A stretch of 64,000 nt of DNA, from contig FMBT01000355.1 of assembly GCA_900095095.1 (NCBI GenBank), positions 124,001 through 188,000 of the forward strand, read 5' to 3'. Source of the DNA: Fragilariopsis cylindrus CCMP1102. Taxonomy: Eukaryota; Bacillariophyta; Bacillariophyceae; Bacillariales; Bacillariaceae. The translations under genes and the position numbers were made by a program. Position 1 is the stretch's first letter. Each line of letters opens with the position of its first letter. The notes under the pieces are model-generated. The model was not told the origin of the DNA, did not search any database, and saw nothing but the letters and a program-made list of their open reading frames with translations. This document shows positions 4,045 to 54,285 of the stretch, piece by piece.

Positions 4045-6195
4045 ATGACGGTGCCATCATACATACGTCCTTCTTTACTGAAAAGACTCTTGCTCTTATT
4101 TTGTATTCTTGGTATTATTCAGTAACAATAACAGCATGGACCTCTGGAATGGTTCGCATATCCACATCATCGTCGACAAGGTCGATACTTCCTCAAACAC
4201 TTCTACGCATGTCTCCATCTTCCTCCCCCCAGTCACCACCTGATAAGCTACAACAACCACTGCAATAGAACAACACGGATATGCAACCCCTCTCATCATG
4301 GGCCCGAAGTCAGGGGTGGTCTTGGCCGATGGCATTCAACTTACGGAAGATACTCTGGTGATTGGAGTTTGAGTACTTCTAAAAGGTTTGAGCGGGGGCG
4401 TGCCATAATGTCTGTCCCGTCACATTTGATACTTAGTAGTGATGTTAACGATGATTCGTTCATGTGTAATGTTTATGCATGGATGGTGGAAATGGGAACG
4501 CAATCCCAACAAGATTACCTACCGGAGTATATGCTAGTGTACAAAATAATAAAGGAAGTGTATCTTGGTGAATTTTCACCATGGTACGCGTGGTTGCAAT
4601 GCCTACCTAGAACATTTTCAACAGGATTATATTTGGACGAATTAGAAAGGTATCAAGTAGAGCGCATGGCAGGAAAGTACGTACGATCTCAGGATTCTCA
4701 ATACCATGATTGTTTGAGTCTCATTCAAAAGCTGATATCTTCTCAAGGCACAAATGCTGATGATTTAATACCCACCGACTTTTATCAATGGATGATAGAA
4801 TTCCCTTACAACAATAACAACGACGATGATGACGAGGATTTATCTTTTGATAACCTAGTCCGGTGGGCTTTTACCGTCGTTTTTACTCGTAGTTGGAGAT
4901 CGCCAGATCGAAAGTATGCTCAAATTGTCCCGTTAGGAGATTTAGCTAATCACGATAGTCAACTTGCCAATCTACAACCTAGTTTTCATCAAAAAGACGG
5001 CGCCTTTCAATTCTATACAACCAATGACATCGATGTAGTGGAACCAACAAGTCTTGGAAACTTGTACTTATCATACGGGTTAAGCTACGCTCCGGCTCGA
5101 TATCTGGTTCTATTTGGTTTTTGTGACGTAACAGCAGCCTACATTGATGCACAACTTGATTTTTTGGAAGATGATGATAGTAGCGATGATAATTATAGTG
5201 GTATGGATGGTGGGAAATGGCCAACGACTCTAGATCCTTCTCAACTAGTAGTTTCTACTACAAATGGTGCCCTTTCAGAAGACGTTTGGATAGCATTTTT
5301 GTACAAGATCTTACAAGAAAACGATCCTGAGATGATACCCAAAATTCGGAAGGCATTTGCTGATGAAGATGACCACGACAGTGGAGATATGCTGTTAGAG
5401 CAGCTGCTAGAGACATGGGAATTGAAAATCGCGATGGAAATCGAAGCGTACTACCAACGATTAATGGAGACAGATTTTGCACCAATTATTGCGTCTGAGT
5501 ATGATCTAGCAGAACACCCGAACTTGAGCATGATCATAAATTACAACCTATTTATAAGAGACACTTATCTAAATGTGTTGAAACACGTCAATATCTTTAT
5601 AGCCCAGTCAATGGCATTTCAAGAAATATCTGATTCGGAAGGTAATAATGAAGAAGATAATGTCGATACCGCTGCCAAGCGCGCATCTTCCATTTTCGGT
5701 TTTCAAAATGATGTGTCCGAAATACTGGACGAACCCTCAAAAAATAGCTATCTGAGTGAAACATCCCTTAATACATTGAGGCCAATGGGAGATTTATCAT
5801 CTCAACAATCATTTTCTTCGTCAGATTCGACCTCTTCAAATCGAGAAAGGGCCTATTATACAAGCACCACTGATACATTAGGCGACATTTCTACCGAATA
5901 TTTCGAATCACAACCTGGTAGTTTCGATCAGACATCACAAGGAAGGATTGATGCGAATACCATGTACACACAAACTTTACCTTTGGATCAGAGAGGGAAT
6001 CCTAGACAAACGGAAGACGATTCGGATAATCAATTTGCAACAAACGACGGACAGGAGCAATCTCAAGGAGAGTCTACCGCTACTTATCAATTGCCGGTAT
6101 CTTCTAAATCATTAGAAACTGATACAAGTCCCAGTCAAGAAAACTATACGAGTACAACTGATCAAGAATTTGATACGTCCTACAATTCTAGCTAG
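4045..6195 (+). CDS. SET-domain protein, Rubisco LSMT/SETD3-like
   Basis: Putative protein-lysine or histidine methyltransferase. From 4369 an uninterrupted frame shows SET features: the RGRAIMSVPSHLILSS block, VPLGDLANHD (the P..D..NH element), and YLSYGLSYAPARYLVLFGF. A helical substrate-binding-like region follows (TWELKIAMEIEAYYQRL ... RDTYLNVLKHV), then ~150 Ser/Thr/Gln-rich residues. The true N-terminus is upstream in other frames: an ATG at 4045 gives a signal-peptide-like leader (SLLKRLLLLFCILG), and frame changes near 4126, 4273 and 4368, each one missing base, join through GVVLADGIQLTED to the SET core. The leader suggests secretory-pathway or plastid targeting, consistent with Rubisco-LSMT relatives, but the substrate is unknown. 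Confidence 0.75.
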
Positions 6196-7466
6196 AAGGA
6201 GAGGGGAATCCATGTGTAGCACCTTTTGCTACGAAGTATAAATGAAAAGCGAAATGACGATTGTAAATGATTCTTTGATAAGTTATATATCCTAGGCAAA
6301 AAATACTACATTGGATAACTCAAAATACGCAGCGTTCTCCGCGGAGAAGAATGTGGATGTTTTGAATTACGTGATACGTAGGTTCTTACTAGTTTTAAGC
6401 TAAACTTCAAAAGGGCTGCTATTGTTTTTATGGGAAAGAATTACTACACATTCCGAAAATCTTAATGTATACAGTAGTAATAATATGTAATTTTACCACA
6501 GGTTTTGCATTGTCCCCAACTCGGTTTATCCTGTACTGTTAGGATAGCAATCTTCTGTTTACCCTTTCCAACATCGATACTATGTCAAACAGCAATATTG
6601 TACAGCATGATTATGCAATACAACATACATCCCCTTCTTCTTACGGAACCTGTTATTGCAAACTTTCATCATGCAATCTTTCTGGACATTTTGACTATTG
6701 ACGTTAGTCAATGATGATTTTTACCATGATCTCGATCGGAACACTGTATACTACTAGCTAGTACCTTATAGGTAGAGCAGAAATACTGGCATGAATGCAG
6801 ACACCTAACCTGTCACATATATACTTAGAAAAATGGTTGAAACACATTTGACTGGAACCTGCCTAGTAGAAGTAGCCTCTTATAGTGAGATCTCCAAACA
6901 TCAAACTAACCAACAGTGACAACAAAAATTATACAAACAACAGAACCAACAACAAATCTTGCCTTGTTTTTCTGTGTCCATCATATTATTTGTAGTGTGT
7001 TGCTGTTGTTGTTGTTGTTGTTGTTAAATTCTCTCTCACACTGCCATCTTCTCACCCCATGTTCGCTGTGAGTAATCATGGTGCTAATTATATCAAACAG
7101 AAAGAAGAATACAAAATAACAAGCAGTTTCAGATCTAGTATACATTGATACTATCAACTGTGTAATATCTTTAACTTATATCCAACCTGTTTGAAATTCT
7201 CTATTATAATATCATTATGTACAGTATTCTAATAGAGTTTTTTCTATCAAAATCTGGTCCGTCCTTTTACCGTTTTTGTCTTGCCGCCGCACAAAATTTT
7301 CATTTGTTTTTTTTCGTTGTTAAATCGGATCCTCTAATTTACTCGACTCCAAATTCAACTCTTGGACTCCCTCTCTTGTTGTTTCATCGACACATACACT
7401 AGTACAACAAGAAAAGAAAGGGACGAATAAGATAATACAAAAGAAGAAAAATAAAACAATAAAATC
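6196..7466. other. Intergenic spacer
   Basis: No supported gene. It contains a 14-base perfect palindrome TTCTCCGCGGAGAA at 6335-6348, a GTT trinucleotide tract near 7003-7025, and otherwise AT-rich unique sequence. Confidence 0.5.
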
Positions 7467-8582: not shown

Positions 8583-10213
<1,631 letters not shown>

Positions 10214-44153: not shown

Positions 44154-45083
44154 TTATCTCTTGACCGTTCGAGATAAGATAAATACGCTCCCCTTATGTC
44201 CTCTAGTGATACGTATTTTATCATCTATGTAATTCGTTTTCAGCCACCCAGTAGGGCCAAGTGGTCCAAGGGGGAAATTCCAATCAACATTAGCATTTTT
44301 GAAGATAAATCGACACGAATCAAATTTGACATCGATACGTCTACTATCTACGTTGTTGGGTTGAAATTTAACATCCACAAGAAGAGATCCCTTCACCGGG
44401 AATGGTTTCTTAATCTGAACATTTACAATGTTTCGAACTAGAGATTTTTTTATATCAATTGATTGGCTACTACGAACCGGTGCAATAGTAGTAGTCCCTC
44501 CGCCGGATGGTTCTAAAATTCCTATACGTTCTAACACGTCTTGAATTTCTCTGGGTAGAATAGGATTAGCTCTACCCTTATCGCCCCGCCGCAAGAAGGG
44601 ATTGTTTGAATAACTTTGATTTTCGAGCGGATTAATGAAACTTGCCCATCCTCCTTTCACATTGGATTGATCTTGGGCCGTCCACAGTAATTGCCAATTA
44701 CCAGCGGATTCTAAAAGTACACGATCATCATTTGTTGGACAGTTCTCCTCTAAAGTTCGAACGGCAATCAATATATCATCGGTGAGTGACTTCGGTGTTG
44801 GAACATTACTTGGAACTTTACTTAAAAGAGTGAGGAGGGCGTTGACGTTTTCATTTTCATTTTCATTTTCATCACCATTATCGTCGACTATAAGCGATTT
44901 GAGTTGAATGGGATGACGAGTTGAACCGATTCGAATCCGACCAAATGATGATGATTTTGTGGAGGAGCGAAATGCGACGACGACAACGACAAAATTTATA
45001 TTTTTGTTAGGGATAGTTGTAGTTGCAACCAACAGTAGGAAACAAAACCTTGCTACAAAGCTTGTCGTTAACTTGTTCACCAT
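44154..45083 (-). CDS. Plastid fibrillin / PAP-family lipid-associated protein
   Basis: Intact 309 residues. The N-terminus is a signal peptide (FVARFCFLLLVATTTI, FVVVVVAF) with Phe at the predicted cleavage site followed by a Ser/Arg-rich transit region, as in secondary-plastid import of diatoms. The body matches PAP_fibrillin (PF04755): LLESAGNWQLLWTAQDQS, ASFINPLENQSY, SLLVDVKFQPN and the C-terminal WNFPLGPLGPTGWLKTNYID..IRITRGHKGSVFILSR. Fibrillins bind hydrophobic ligands in plastoglobules and thylakoids. It is divergent to the hypermodification-like gene, with 496 bp between starts. Confidence 0.88.
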   Translation of the reverse strand: MVNKLTTSFVARFCFLLLVATTTIPNKNINFVVVVVAFRSSTKSSSFGRIRIGSTRHPIQLKSLIVDDNGDENENENENVNALLTLLSKVPSNVPTPKSLTDDILIAVRTLEENCPTNDDRVLLESAGNWQLLWTAQDQSNVKGGWASFINPLENQSYSNNPFLRRGDKGRANPILPREIQDVLERIGILEPSGGGTTTIAPVRSSQSIDIKKSLVRNIVNVQIKKPFPVKGSLLVDVKFQPNNVDSRRIDVKFDSCRFIFKNANVDWNFPLGPLGPTGWLKTNYIDDKIRITRGHKGSVFILSRTVKR

Positions 45084-45579: not shown

Positions 45580-47293
45580 ATGAAAGCACTGCCTCGCGAT
45601 GATACGAGTGGTCGTCAGCAGGGCGAGGTGTCAGCGTCCATATCGAAACGAAAATCCCCCTTGAAGAAAAAGAGAGAAGGAAAGACGAAGAATACCAATG
45701 AGAGACAAATTAACCGATCAGTTGTTGTATCCATTGCGGCTCAGAACAGAAAGGATTCCTCTTTGTGGAATCTATTGCCCACGATGACACGAGCCTTGTT
45801 TGTTGAAAAGATATCAAGAAGTGTTTATTCTCCCACCATCACCGGCTTTTTATCGAACAATTTTACCATTCAAAACAACCTTCCCCTGGACTTGCATAGA
45901 TATATTCCCAATATGGTAGAATTCTACTTGCAAATACTGGAACGTCAGCGTTTGTTCGTGACTAATGAAAACCAACAAACAGGATCTTTCGAAACTACCA
46001 TTTCTGCAATAATTATCGCGAACTTGATCGTGGAACAGCCTTCTTTCGATCACAGGTCTTACAGTTATACTTTGATCATAATGGCGATAATCGTGACAAA
46101 CAATCATCACAAAATCAACAGAATCAACAACAACAACGTAATAGTCAGAATTATGTAATAATTATTGGACACAATTAGACTGGACTGAACAGGTCTTAGC
46201 TCTTTCGTATCATTATCGTCTTTGCAATCGAATGGATTCATTTACTCATAGTGATAATCCGTTACTTCCATTGGGGAATATGATTCCTCGGCTTGGTCAA
46301 TTTCAAGGTGAGTTTGCTGCGTATGTACGAAGTTACAAGACCCGTAAGAAGCATTTTTTACTGCAGCACATCAAACAACCAACTATGAAGCATACATCCG
46401 TTGGTGTTGTCAAGAGACAACACCAACGATAGAAATTGGGAAGATATTGCGGGTACGAGTAGCTGTGATATACGACAACTAGCTAGTGAAGTACTTGATG
46501 CAGTTTCTGGGACGGCAGATGATGGCACCTGTCGTTGTGACTTAAGAAAGGCATGTAAGACACTGACAAAATTGAATGGTGTACGAAATTTCTATGCCTG
46601 GCAGATTCTTTGTGACTTGGAAGAGGCGGCTGCTTTGGACTCATCAAACAGAATATCTGTATGATGGTTTCTGTCTACTAGGTCCCGGTGCCGAACATGG
46701 ATTGGAAAGAATATTTGGGAAGAATGTTATTTCTAAAGTTGGCATGACAACAAACAACAACAACAACAACAACATCAAATCGTATTCATCGTTGCAGCTC
46801 TGTAAATATCTCCGAGATAATAAGATATTTGTTGGGACTAGTAGATAAATCATTTCCATATTGGAGAAAGCGCCCCGTGACATTGAAAGTAATTGAACAT
46901 GCCCTGTGTGAGCATGACAAGTTTATCCGACTCGATTTGTATCCTGGTAAGGAACTCCGAAAGCGTAAAAGTGTTTCCCATTTGGATGCTATCAAACCTT
47001 GTCAATGCTGTGGTAAAATTGCAGGTGCACACACAAATGATGACGATAAGGGATCCACACGGTGTGATTCTTGTCATGCGACATTCTGTTCGGACTGTGT
47101 TAGTCAGAATAATACTCGTAATGGTATTCCTAACCACAACAATAGTGCTGCTCAACAACAGCAGAAAAGTAGATTCTTCATGCTTCCAATTATTGTCGTC
47201 GTTGTTACGATCTCGATAACTTACAATTTTCTGACTAAAATAAATGATCTAAAATACATTTGGCTTGAAAAATTAGTAGGCAGTATTAATTAG
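45580..47293 (+). CDS. Homologue of thymine-hypermodification / 5-hmdU-kinase helical superfamily, with Zn motif and TM
   Basis: A basic N-terminus (KRKSPLKKKREGKTK), then blocks in changing frames: LQILERQRLFV, YRELDRGTAFFRSQV, VLALSYHYRLCNRMDSF, FFTAAHQTTNYEAYIRW, KLNGVRNFYAWQILCDL and LLGPGAEHGLERIFG. The order YR.LDRGT..F - YR..NR - FTAA/FTGA - GV..F.A.QI..DL - GPGA..GL is that of the helical domain (alpha-glutamyl/putrescinyl-thymine pyrophosphorylase and 5-hmdU DNA kinase) known from phage base-hypermodification systems, with eukaryotic members. The C-terminus adds CQCCG...CDSCHATFCSDC (zinc site, ~47000-47100) and one transmembrane helix (~47170-47225). At least six indels (near 45985, 46173, 46400, 46645, 46750, 46802) interrupt it. 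Activity is unproven. Ends 58 bp from the FKBP gene. Confidence 0.6.
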
Positions 47294-47351
47294 TACCTTG
47301 ATGGGGTAAAGTTCAATATTTTGATGACTTGTCTTAACAAACAAGCAAAAC

Positions 47352-48067
47352 TTAGTATAATCCAATGCAATTGTTATAATTTTTATAGAGGGTGTTCTTC
47401 CAACCATTTTTTGCATCAGGTGCTAATTCTTCGGCCGGTTCTACCTTAGTTAATGTCATTTCAAAATAAAGAGTACATTTCCCGGGAATTGGACCGACAC
47501 CTTTGTCGCCGTATCCTAGTTCAGGTGGTACGATTATTTTTCTTGATTCACCTTCCATCATATCGAGTAAAGTAAGATCCCATCCACGTATCACCTGACT
47601 ACACCTGCTCTCACTTTAAATGGTTGATCACCAATCAATGGCTTTCTACTACTATCAATTTGCTTTGCTGATGGACCATCACCTGGAAATGAATTAATCC
47701 AGAGTGTATAACTAGTACTAATTTTTTGTCCTCGTGCCGGTTTCGGACCACTACCCTCATGGGTAACTATATATTTAAGTCCCTCAGGACCATCCTTATA
47801 ATCCTCTGTTGTTGTTCCTGTTCCTGCTGCTGCAAAAGCCATCGGTACGGTAGTGTCCCATACGAGGAACGATGTCGTCGCTGCTGTTGTTATTGTCGCA
47901 ATGGCATCCCGTCTACTACTCGTACTAGTACCACTAGACGACAACAGCGACGAAGACGACGATGATGATGGCATCGATAGACAATGCACATCACTGATAG
48001 GACCGATTAAAAACTGGAGCAGCAGAGACAACGTTGCCACGATAGATATTCTACGATAGAAAATCAT
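47352..48067 (-). CDS. Thylakoid-lumen FKBP-type peptidyl-prolyl isomerase
   Basis: Starts at ATG 48067 (MIFYRRISIV). A signal peptide (ISIVATLSLLLQFLIG) and a Ser-rich transit stretch are followed by a twin-arginine lumen signal, SRRDAIATITTAATTSFLVW...MAFA, so three-step import to the thylakoid lumen is predicted. The FKBP_C domain follows: GLKYIVTHEGSGPKPARG, TSYTLWI, PFKVRAGV, then, after one missing base near 47600, QVIRGWDLTLLDMMEGESRKI, PPELGYGD, IPGKCTLYFEMTL. Family members catalyse proline isomerisation and assist photosystem assembly. Only 58 bp separate its stop from that of the gene at 45580, so transcripts probably overlap at the 3' ends. Confidence 0.9.
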
Positions 48068-48563
48068 TTTTGTGGTTAGCACAAAATAGTTCAATTCGTG
48101 CAGTGTAGTGGATTTTGAATGAAAAGATTGCTTACTTCGTGTTAGTTATTGTTGAGTAGGCTTGTTATTACTTGGAGTGTAGGTAAGTACTAGTAATAAG
48201 ATCTATCTATCTGTATTGTATGATGTGATGTTGTATGCACTGGCTGTATGTGACTTTATGTATCGGTAGTATTAGTAATATGAACACTTCAAGCAGTGTG
48301 TGTATGATTAAAGATCGGATCATCGAAACAAAAATACTCCTCGAATAGCACGTGCCATGACTAGGACTTCTTGCTTCAGTCACGAATGACTTAAGATCAA
48401 GAAGATATCAGAATTATCGCGAGAATTTGCAAATAAATATCAGAATAATAATGAATCATCGAAAATCACTGAATCAATCATCCAATCATCCACAAAAGTT
48501 GCATCATCACATGCAACACAATAACATCCGTTGAAAAGGTCTATTGTATACTGTTAATTAACG
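48068..48563. other. Divergent promoter region
   Basis: Between two plastid-protein genes (FKBP, UPF0301) transcribed away from each other. No gene seen. Confidence 0.45.
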
Positions 48564-52366: not shown

Positions 52367-54285
52367 TTAGTTTGCCCTGCTATAATGTTGTTTCAAAACC
52401 AGCATCCTTCCTCCAATTGGATCGGTCTGTATAATACACAATTCCCGCACGGCCTCTTTAAATTTCGTTTGTCGATCTGCGCTAGACTTTTTCTTGACAT
52501 CAAATATCTTCATGAGTCTCTTCATAGGAATTTTTCCACGTGTCAACCAAATCTCATGTCGAACCGCCTCCAACGTAACAAGACGTTGACCGTTCTCGTC
52601 CACTTCCACGACGTTTTTCTTTTTCTTGGACTTACTAGCAACGTTACCGCTATTGTCTCCTCCGTCCTCGCCATTGGAAGAAACTGATGCCATCTTGCTT
52701 TCAGCTTCCATTCGAGCCCTTTCGGCGGCTTCCATAATTTTGGCCAAATGATCACCACCCGACGAGTCTTCATTCTTTCGGTCGTTTTCAGCCTGTAACT
52801 TGTCGCCTTCTTCGGCTTGCCGTTTGTTCTTATCGGCAAGTTCAGCCAATTGCTCCGGTGTGATTTCCCCTCTAGCCTTAGCCAACATGAGACGAAAGCC
52901 CGCTAGAGAAGCCAAGCCCTCCGCACCGGTAGGACGTTCACCGAGTGCGTCATCTTCAAGATCGTCATCTTCATCGTCATCGATTCCACCAAAGTTTGAA
53001 TCGGCGATATGGACGTCCGTTTCTCCCACATCAACATCGTCGTCATCGAATTGTTCGTTTGCATCGTAATCCAATTCTTCGTATTCGGCTTGGACGTCTC
53101 GTTTGTAAAAGTCATCGGCCATGGCGTTACCATCATTACCGCTAGACTTGTTTGGTCCAGCCGCCGTGTCGTCTTCTTGTCTTTACCATTGTCGTCTTTT
53201 CCGGCAGAAAAGTGTCCAAATTTTTGGCCCCTTTGTCCGAATATACTATCGTTGCCACCACCTAAAACACCATCAGCATCGACTCTCATATCGTCACCAA
53301 AACTATTGAGCAATTCCTGACGTGCCTTTGCAGAACCCTTACTACTTTTGTTTCGAAAGGTCAGGTCACTCATAACATCATCTTCGTCACCATCTCCATC
53401 CAACAAACGTTTGCGTTTAGCAGCTCCTGCACCCGCCTTTTTCTTTCCAGTCTTGATGTCAATACCCTCGTCGTCACCATCGGCTCCTGCCATGAGCTTA
53501 CCTAGTAACCTCGTTCGGGACCGATGGATTGGTGCCTGTCCTTGAAAGATACGTTGCTGGTCGTGCATCATGAATCGCGATGTTTTATTTCTTTGGTCGT
53601 CGATGGCCTGTTCGGCTTCACTCATAGTCATCGCCTTTATGGCCTTTGGTTGACTGAAGGCAATATGTGCGTGGGGACTTGGCAAGACAGTAACTTGGAT
53701 GGTGTTTTTACCTTTGGCGTTTGCGTCGTTGCTGTTGTCATTCGTTTCTAGCAAGATAAAATGAGACGAATTCCGTTCTGGTAATCCTTCATAAACTGAT
53801 GAAGTTGGATTTTCTGTTTCATTTCCTCCCTCTTTTCCAGTACCAGCCCGTTTCACCATCATGTTTTCTAAGAATTCAACTTGTTCTTGCAATACCCATT
53901 GTCGTCTTGGAACTTGTTTGCGTGCCCTCCATCGCTTTTTAGGTTGCGAAAGCTGTCCCTGAGTGTCGTCGGCTTCGTCATCTGAATCGTCTGTGGCTTT
54001 GGGAACATCTCGTTGGTACAATCGGGCCTCACTCCAGGGATTGTCACCAAATTCAGGCGTGACGACACTTTCTGAAAACTTCGCAACTATGGGAAAAGCT
54101 TCCTTAGGAGCGTTCGGATTGACGGGATCTGGTGTTAGCGTCCGAGAAGAGGACGGACCCTTAATGAGGACGAACCGAATTTCTTCTCCCGGTTTCAAGT
54201 CTCTGCCTTGACTTGTCAAGAGTGCATCGATGCCGGTTCCCGAACCGTTCACTTTCTTTTTCGTGGATGCTGCAGGCTTGGACAT
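52367..54285 (-). CDS. GTF2F1: General transcription factor TFIIF, alpha subunit (RAP74)
   Basis: Part of the RNA polymerase II initiation factor that stabilises polymerase at promoters. N-terminal TFIIF-alpha domain: EEIRFVLIKG, FGDNPWSEARLYQRD, KKRWRARKQVPRRQWVLQEQ, YEGLPERNSSHFILLE. The central part is charged (MADDFYKRDVQAEYEELDYD, then an Asp-rich segment), and the C-terminus is a winged helix (GKIPMKRLMKIFDVKKK, RQTKFKEAVRELC, GGRMLVLKQHYS). One missing A near 53176 shifts the frame just before NAMADDFYKR; the sequence on both sides is well conserved, so the locus is one gene of ~635 residues. No intron seen. Confidence 0.93.

Follow-up and report, generated by a model that had tools for sequence, protein, structure and literature searches.

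A frame-broken gene of the diatom Fragilariopsis cylindrus encodes a divergent member of the phage HMUDK_hel family

Does a diatom nuclear genome carry a relative of the phage enzymes that hypermodify thymine bases? The question is raised by a gene at positions 45580..47293 (+) of a 64,000-nucleotide stretch of Fragilariopsis cylindrus CCMP1102 (assembly GCA_900095095.1, contig FMBT01000355.1, positions 124,001 to 188,000), which we refer to as the window. An initial annotation, made by eye on frame-shifted sequence, had placed its product in the helical superfamily of alpha-glutamyl/putrescinyl-thymine pyrophosphorylases and 5-hydroxymethyldeoxyuridine (5hmdU) DNA kinases, fused to a zinc motif and a membrane anchor. 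We found that the feature is an intron-less nuclear diatom gene whose product, judged by profile comparison, belongs to the HMUDK_hel family (PF18723) as a divergent member and has a near-complete set of family-invariant residues.

We joined the seven frame segments of the gene into one protein of 574 residues, with an X at each of the six joins. HMUDK_hel was its sole significant Pfam match (62.7 bits, E 4.8e-17, over two stretches; Pfam gathering cut-off 25), and phrog_2396 was its sole PHROG match (E 8.5e-13). The superfamily assignment was therefore borne out, specifically as HMUDK_hel; joining neither abolished significant profile matches nor brought up a better match to an unrelated family. 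Unjoined fragments matched PF18723 in order, at profile positions 31-60 (E 9e-5), 188-220 (E 0.001) and 251-274 (E 0.022), with scores of 22.4, 19 and 14.6 bits that each fall under the cut-off. A second profile, A4, was made from an alignment of 17 relatives with the diatom sequence left out; it scored the joined protein at 96.2 bits, against 8.4 bits for the best of 1000 shuffles. Six-frame reading of the window gives 2602 stop-to-stop pieces of at least 15 residues; the four that matched A4 best were collinear pieces of this gene (profile positions 49-80, 169-212, 205-237 and 261-300), and the next-best fragment, located elsewhere, reached E 0.71. The 17 relatives had been retrieved with F[TC]N.YR[EK]LDRG, a motif drawn from the diatom gene, which biases the comparison towards the stretch 49-80; three of the four best fragments lie outside that stretch, and PF18723 is independent of the search motif.

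The residues that are invariant in the family are nearly all retained. The diatom protein keeps 23 of the 25 columns invariant in A4, missing R40 and W49. Eight of these 25 (F60, N62, Y64, R65, L67, D68, R69 and G70) are fixed by the search motif, and 15 of the 17 that are free of it are kept, as are 28 of the 40 columns conserved in at least 15 of the 17 rows. The PWT region, to which W49 belongs, adjoins the first frame break, so sequence may be missing there; nor does PWT define the family, because the protein of phage LuckyBarnes (PF18723 E 4.6e-68) also lacks it. With the HMUDK_hel proteins of phages phiMAM1, PaMx11, Goe26 and Montesquieu the diatom protein has the Pfam profile and the ordered motifs in common, and the R, F-N-R-D, F-D, GPG-G and CE-K residues are invariant between it and seven phage HMUDK_hel proteins.

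Other profiles gave no competing assignment. The joined protein had no match to the P-loop kinase PF18748, to the ADDT profile PF18724 or to Pfam HhH-GPD, and we rejected a reading of HMUDK_hel as the kinase itself, the domain being distinct from PF18748. In NCBIfam the best match of the joined protein was at E 0.44 and five relatives had none; in a sequence search of PDB the joined core had no match and A4 returned only three chance-level rows (E at least 0.73). No profile named aGPT-PPlase turned up in any result, and no look-up was aimed at it.

All motifs named in the initial annotation are present at 45580-47293, on the + strand and across three frames, and the gene is frame-broken as described there: its path runs 0>2>1>0>2>0>1, with six breaks in 1711 nucleotides, no in-frame stop on the chosen path and no intron required. 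Codon usage, trained on ten other open reading frames (ORFs) of the window, broadly agrees with this path. Segment 1 (frame 0, 45580..45993) holds an N-terminal extension, in which the basic cluster KRKSPLKKKR (45646..45675) is a possible nuclear localisation signal, and the ERQ start of the helical domain, a weak match to profile positions 12-35 (E 5.5). Segment 2 (frame 2, 45996..46154) opens with the core motif YHFCNNYRELDRGT (45996-46037), followed by a low-complexity Q/N-rich insert at 46040-46150 that lies within the helical domain and is absent from the aligned relatives; AAC repeats also occur near 46745-46780. Segment 3 (frame 1, 46157..46354; WTEQVLALSYHYRLCNR) includes the YHYRLCNR motif and weakly matches profile positions 83-105 (E 4.4), and segment 4 (frame 0, 46354..46410) begins with FFTAAH at 46354. 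The helix-hairpin-helix-like LNGVRNFYAWQILCDL lies in segment 5 (frame 2, 46413..46637), together with GVRNFYAWQILCDL at 46578-46619, and the GPGAEHGL loop (46681-46704) in segment 6 (frame 0, 46639..46758). Segment 7 (frame 1, 46760..47290, followed by the stop codon) carries the IEHALCEHDKF motif (46892..46924), in which the E, C, E and K residues do not vary across the 17 relatives, and then a C-terminal tail.

This tail comprises a cysteine cluster, CxCC-x17-CxxC-x4-CxxC (47000..47098), and a hydrophobic stretch (47174..47233; best 19-residue mean hydropathy 2.17) that is a predicted membrane anchor. The zinc motif stands in part: the cysteine cluster is present and IBR-like, but its IBR score, 19 bits for the fragment and 12 for the full protein, is below the cut-off of 24.3. 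The view that the tail is foreign to the phage forms was upheld; in the 54 viral relatives, two CxxC pairs occur in none of the ORFs, and hydropathy at transmembrane level in only one, close to its N-terminus. Several viral loci have zinc proteins of their own. On viral contigs L015 (8117-8506, -) and L023 (10665-11027, -) a zf_Tbcl-like small protein is encoded just upstream of the hel gene (the match is above the Pfam cut-off for L023 and slightly below for L015), and L013 has a look-alike upstream of 1197. In all three the order is small zinc protein, hel gene and thymidylate-synthase-family gene, an arrangement that may be a small conserved operon. We did not accept the diatom tail as a fused form of this viral neighbour, since its cysteine spacing differs from that of the zf_Tbcl-like protein. 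A different tail is found in the hel protein of viral contig L077, which has a basic C-terminal tail of 130 residues with RGRRARK and RRRGRPPK, AT-hook-like by eye.

From where might a diatom have obtained such a gene? The collections scanned for relatives consisted of prokaryotes, phages, plasmids and viral contigs. The diatom protein had a sole match among plasmids, the haloarchaeal Natrinema protein QCC61177.1 (E 7e-6), which is itself a PF18723 member (E 1.3e-59), matches 443 phage records at E <=0.01 and, like the diatom protein, carries FPYWxKR and EHALCExxKF. A motif scan found 17 viral contigs, all 17 true relatives by profile, and three GTDB contigs, one of which, from a Nanoarchaeota metagenome-assembled genome (MAG), was a true relative. 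The alignment-based scan of viral contigs gave 54 loci, every one with a hel ORF and with the earlier contigs included; the same kind of scan found no relatives in genome contigs. Against phages, tblastn gave no match for the joined core or for one fragment, and three viral scans confirmed nothing; the query was the diatom protein or alignment A2 in two of them and the Natrinema protein in the third. In a tree of 25 rows the diatom branch has a length of 2.9 and its fork a support of 67/82, so that its placement is not settled and a viral or archaeal origin is a general inference only. At that level, the gene was probably gained from the pool of viruses and archaea and now stands alone. The Natrinema and Nanoarchaeota hel proteins are stand-alone domains, unlike the diatom protein, and both have a thymidylate-synthase-family match about 0.7 kb away, below the cut-off in Natrinema; on the Nanoarchaeota contig the two genes sit close together at 4385-6575 (-).

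Genomic context shows which genes accompany the family. We sampled 24 hel-bearing records (7 phage or plasmid, 16 viral contigs and 1 MAG, with L021 excluded as a duplicate), in which a thymidylate-synthase-family gene was present in 22, above the cut-off in 21 and below it in Natrinema (E 0.003); this profile cannot tell thymidylate synthase from pyrimidine hydroxymethylase. The gene lay within 5 kb of hel in 19 of the 24 records and within 1 kb in 15. The PF18748 kinase was matched in 10 of the 24, above the cut-off in 8, several records being fragments, so the steadier partner of hel is the base-making enzyme. The kinase-like P-loop neighbour in PaMx11 was barely seen by PF18748 (17 bits), which shows that this profile misses divergent kinases. 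In the Brevibacterium phage LuckyBarnes (801-4816 of its record), where PF18748 had no match, two annotated glycosyltransferases lie between the thymidylate synthase and the hel gene, and this locus may make glycosylated hydroxymethyluracil (hmU). Phage HMUDK_hel genes are accompanied by a gene of the thymidylate synthase family and in many cases by a PF18748 kinase, whereas the diatom gene sits between nuclear genes for PAP_fibrillin (44154..45083, -) and an FKBP-type isomerase (47352..48145, -), with no linked thymidylate-synthase-family hydroxymethylase. In six-frame searches of the diatom genome, PF18748 had no match, an absence that is provisional given the indel-bearing assembly; TET/JBP had none; and ADDT had none, a weak absence as no control genome gave a signal.

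Fold comparison suggests what the domain may do. For a modelled viral relative, the closest solved fold was PUGT (gp46) of PaMx11 (PDB 8z2n, 8z2m), and the model also resembled the HhH-GPD glycosylases OGG, AlkA and endonuclease III. An hhalign comparison with PUGT was weak and collinear; one with nine HhH-GPD loci gave a probability of 1.5%, the L102 row being auto-picked and possibly in the wrong frame. PUGT is a 5-PmdU glycinyltransferase of the ADDT family (PF18724), a family that the diatom protein does not match, and the likeness to HhH-GPD DNA glycosylases is that of the viral model, the diatom protein having no match to their Pfam profile. Because 14 of the 24 records lack a PF18748 match and the modelled member is most like PUGT and the glycosylases, the model suggests that HMUDK_hel is a DNA-reading or group-transfer part. 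This touches the whole family, which Pfam labels 'kinase, helical domain'.

The explanation we favour, at about even chances, is a divergent HMUDK_hel gene drawn from the pool of viruses and archaea, whose product works at the nuclear or endoplasmic reticulum (ER) membrane. The diatom core would have the HhH-GPD fold of phage PUGT, like that of base-flipping DNA glycosylases, and would bind DNA through the helix-hairpin-helix; the N-YRELDRGT, GPG and EHxLCExxK motifs would form the walls of a pocket that takes in a 5-substituted thymine or uracil base. The viral proteins would read hmU in DNA or complete it, the base being flipped out and held by the N-YRELDRGT, GPG and CE-K residues for chemistry at its 5-position, a step presumably coupled with a thymidylate-synthase-family enzyme that supplies hmU. 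The diatom protein could be placed at the nuclear or ER membrane, with its core towards the DNA, by its N-terminal basic cluster and C-terminal anchor; there, by itself or together with a host kinase or transferase, it may recognise or alter rare 5-hydroxymethyl-U that arises from thymine oxidation or is carried by invading DNA.

Two sets of observations speak for rival readings. The first concerns the breaks, six in 1.71 kb, which could be real: elsewhere in the window ORFs run on without any break, among them WD40 (370 residues) and glycosyl hydrolase 99 (671 residues). The gene would then be a recently broken relic, functional until lately, its breaks being true mutations of the strain. A duplicated piece of the neighbourhood also fits loss: window 47211-47970, which covers the FKBP gene and the last ~83 nucleotides of the hel gene, recurs at 84% in C252:32013-32688 and C809:47839-48511 (-), where just that end of the gene, with its stop, is retained. 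C252 and C809 are 99.8% alike over 2.56 kb, and a piece of the PAP_fibrillin gene (44524-44728) matches them at 92-94%, 0.7-1.6 kb from the FKBP copy. We considered C252/C809 as an allele without the gene and rejected this, as a comparison over 40 and 30 kb gave two stretches of at least 60 bases, in a different order; the match is a duplicated FKBP piece and not a haplotype. In the genome as a whole (67.9 Mb, 818 contigs, E up to 10), PF18723 matched one place, this gene at 45580-47293, with a 20-bit fragment below the cut-off, a search that an equally broken second copy might escape. The diatom identity of this genome is borne out by 27 silicon-transporter matches, exon pieces counted, every one above the cut-off. 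Against a relic stands a gene that we take, from familiar EF-Tu motifs together with Pfam matches, to be organellar EF-Tu (~8601-10030, -). It has an intron, and its second-exon pieces lie in frames 2, 1, 0 and 2, three changes in 924 nucleotides; six other places in the genome match its protein, at identities of 32% or less. That an apparently single-copy and needed gene is broken as densely as the hel gene, with its six breaks in 1711 nucleotides, argues for assembly error, and the FKBP gene has one frame break too. With no in-frame stop on the chosen path and 23 of 25 invariant residues kept, we consider a relic unlikely.

The second set concerns divergence: the very long branch (2.9), the loss of R40 and PWT, the Q/N-rich insert and the lack of detected partners would suit a repurposed fold that acts on RNA, on nucleotides or as a scaffold, apart from thymine modification. 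The almost complete retention of residues conserved across relatives speaks against such repurposing, which we regard as rather improbable. Removal from nuclear DNA of 5-hydroxymethyl-U or a similar oxidised pyrimidine, in the manner of an HhH-GPD repair glycosylase, would agree with the fold of the viral relative, and a eukaryotic orphan with no detected partner genes could live on oxidised thymine; yet there is no Pfam HhH-GPD match, the usual catalytic Lys/Asp was not located and the context of the family is base synthesis rather than repair, which leaves this role quite doubtful. Equally doubtful is an antiviral sensor or effector that recognises hypermodified or hmU-bearing algal-virus DNA at a membrane: the tail is unlike viral forms, and passages of PMC13092281 place 5-hydroxymethyluracil kinase and thymidylate synthase domains, with the Pfam domain not evident from those passages, among bacterial defence systems validated by experiment and name aGPT-PPlase as a predicted one, but PADLOC matched none of three relatives or two window fragments in a scan run without the joined protein, and the flanking genes are PAP_fibrillin and FKBP.

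What is new here is, as far as seen, the host lineage and the tail; the domain is known. Neither the name HMUDK_hel nor the accession PF18723 occurred in the literature searched, and no eukaryotic HMUDK_hel protein was among the matches listed (titles and abstract starts). The founding computational paper is reportedly that of Iyer et al. 2013. The gene is a defined handle for asking whether diatoms contain, read or repair hypermodified thymine bases. According to PMC7653180 and PMC6449724, a 5hmdU DNA kinase acts on DNA, and PMC11071213, as excerpted, reports hmU in dinoflagellate DNA. The eukaryotic hypermodified thymine discussed in the accessible sections of PMC11065753, whose main text lacks the word diatom, is base J, made via hmU; this pathway (kinetoplastids, JBP1/2 and JGT) differs from the diatom, whose genome has no TET/JBP match. 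A membrane-tethered diatom enzyme with the HhH-GPD fold, descended from viruses or archaea and able to modify or read nuclear 5-hydroxymethyl-U independently of TET/JBP and base J, is in this full form a long shot; if it held, eukaryotes would have a thymine-hypermodification or modification-sensing pathway separate from both.

Farther along the window, an acidic protein at 52367-54285 (-), presumably TFIIF-alpha-like by eye, seems to run on across a frame change near 53100; its C-terminal ORF matches no Pfam family.
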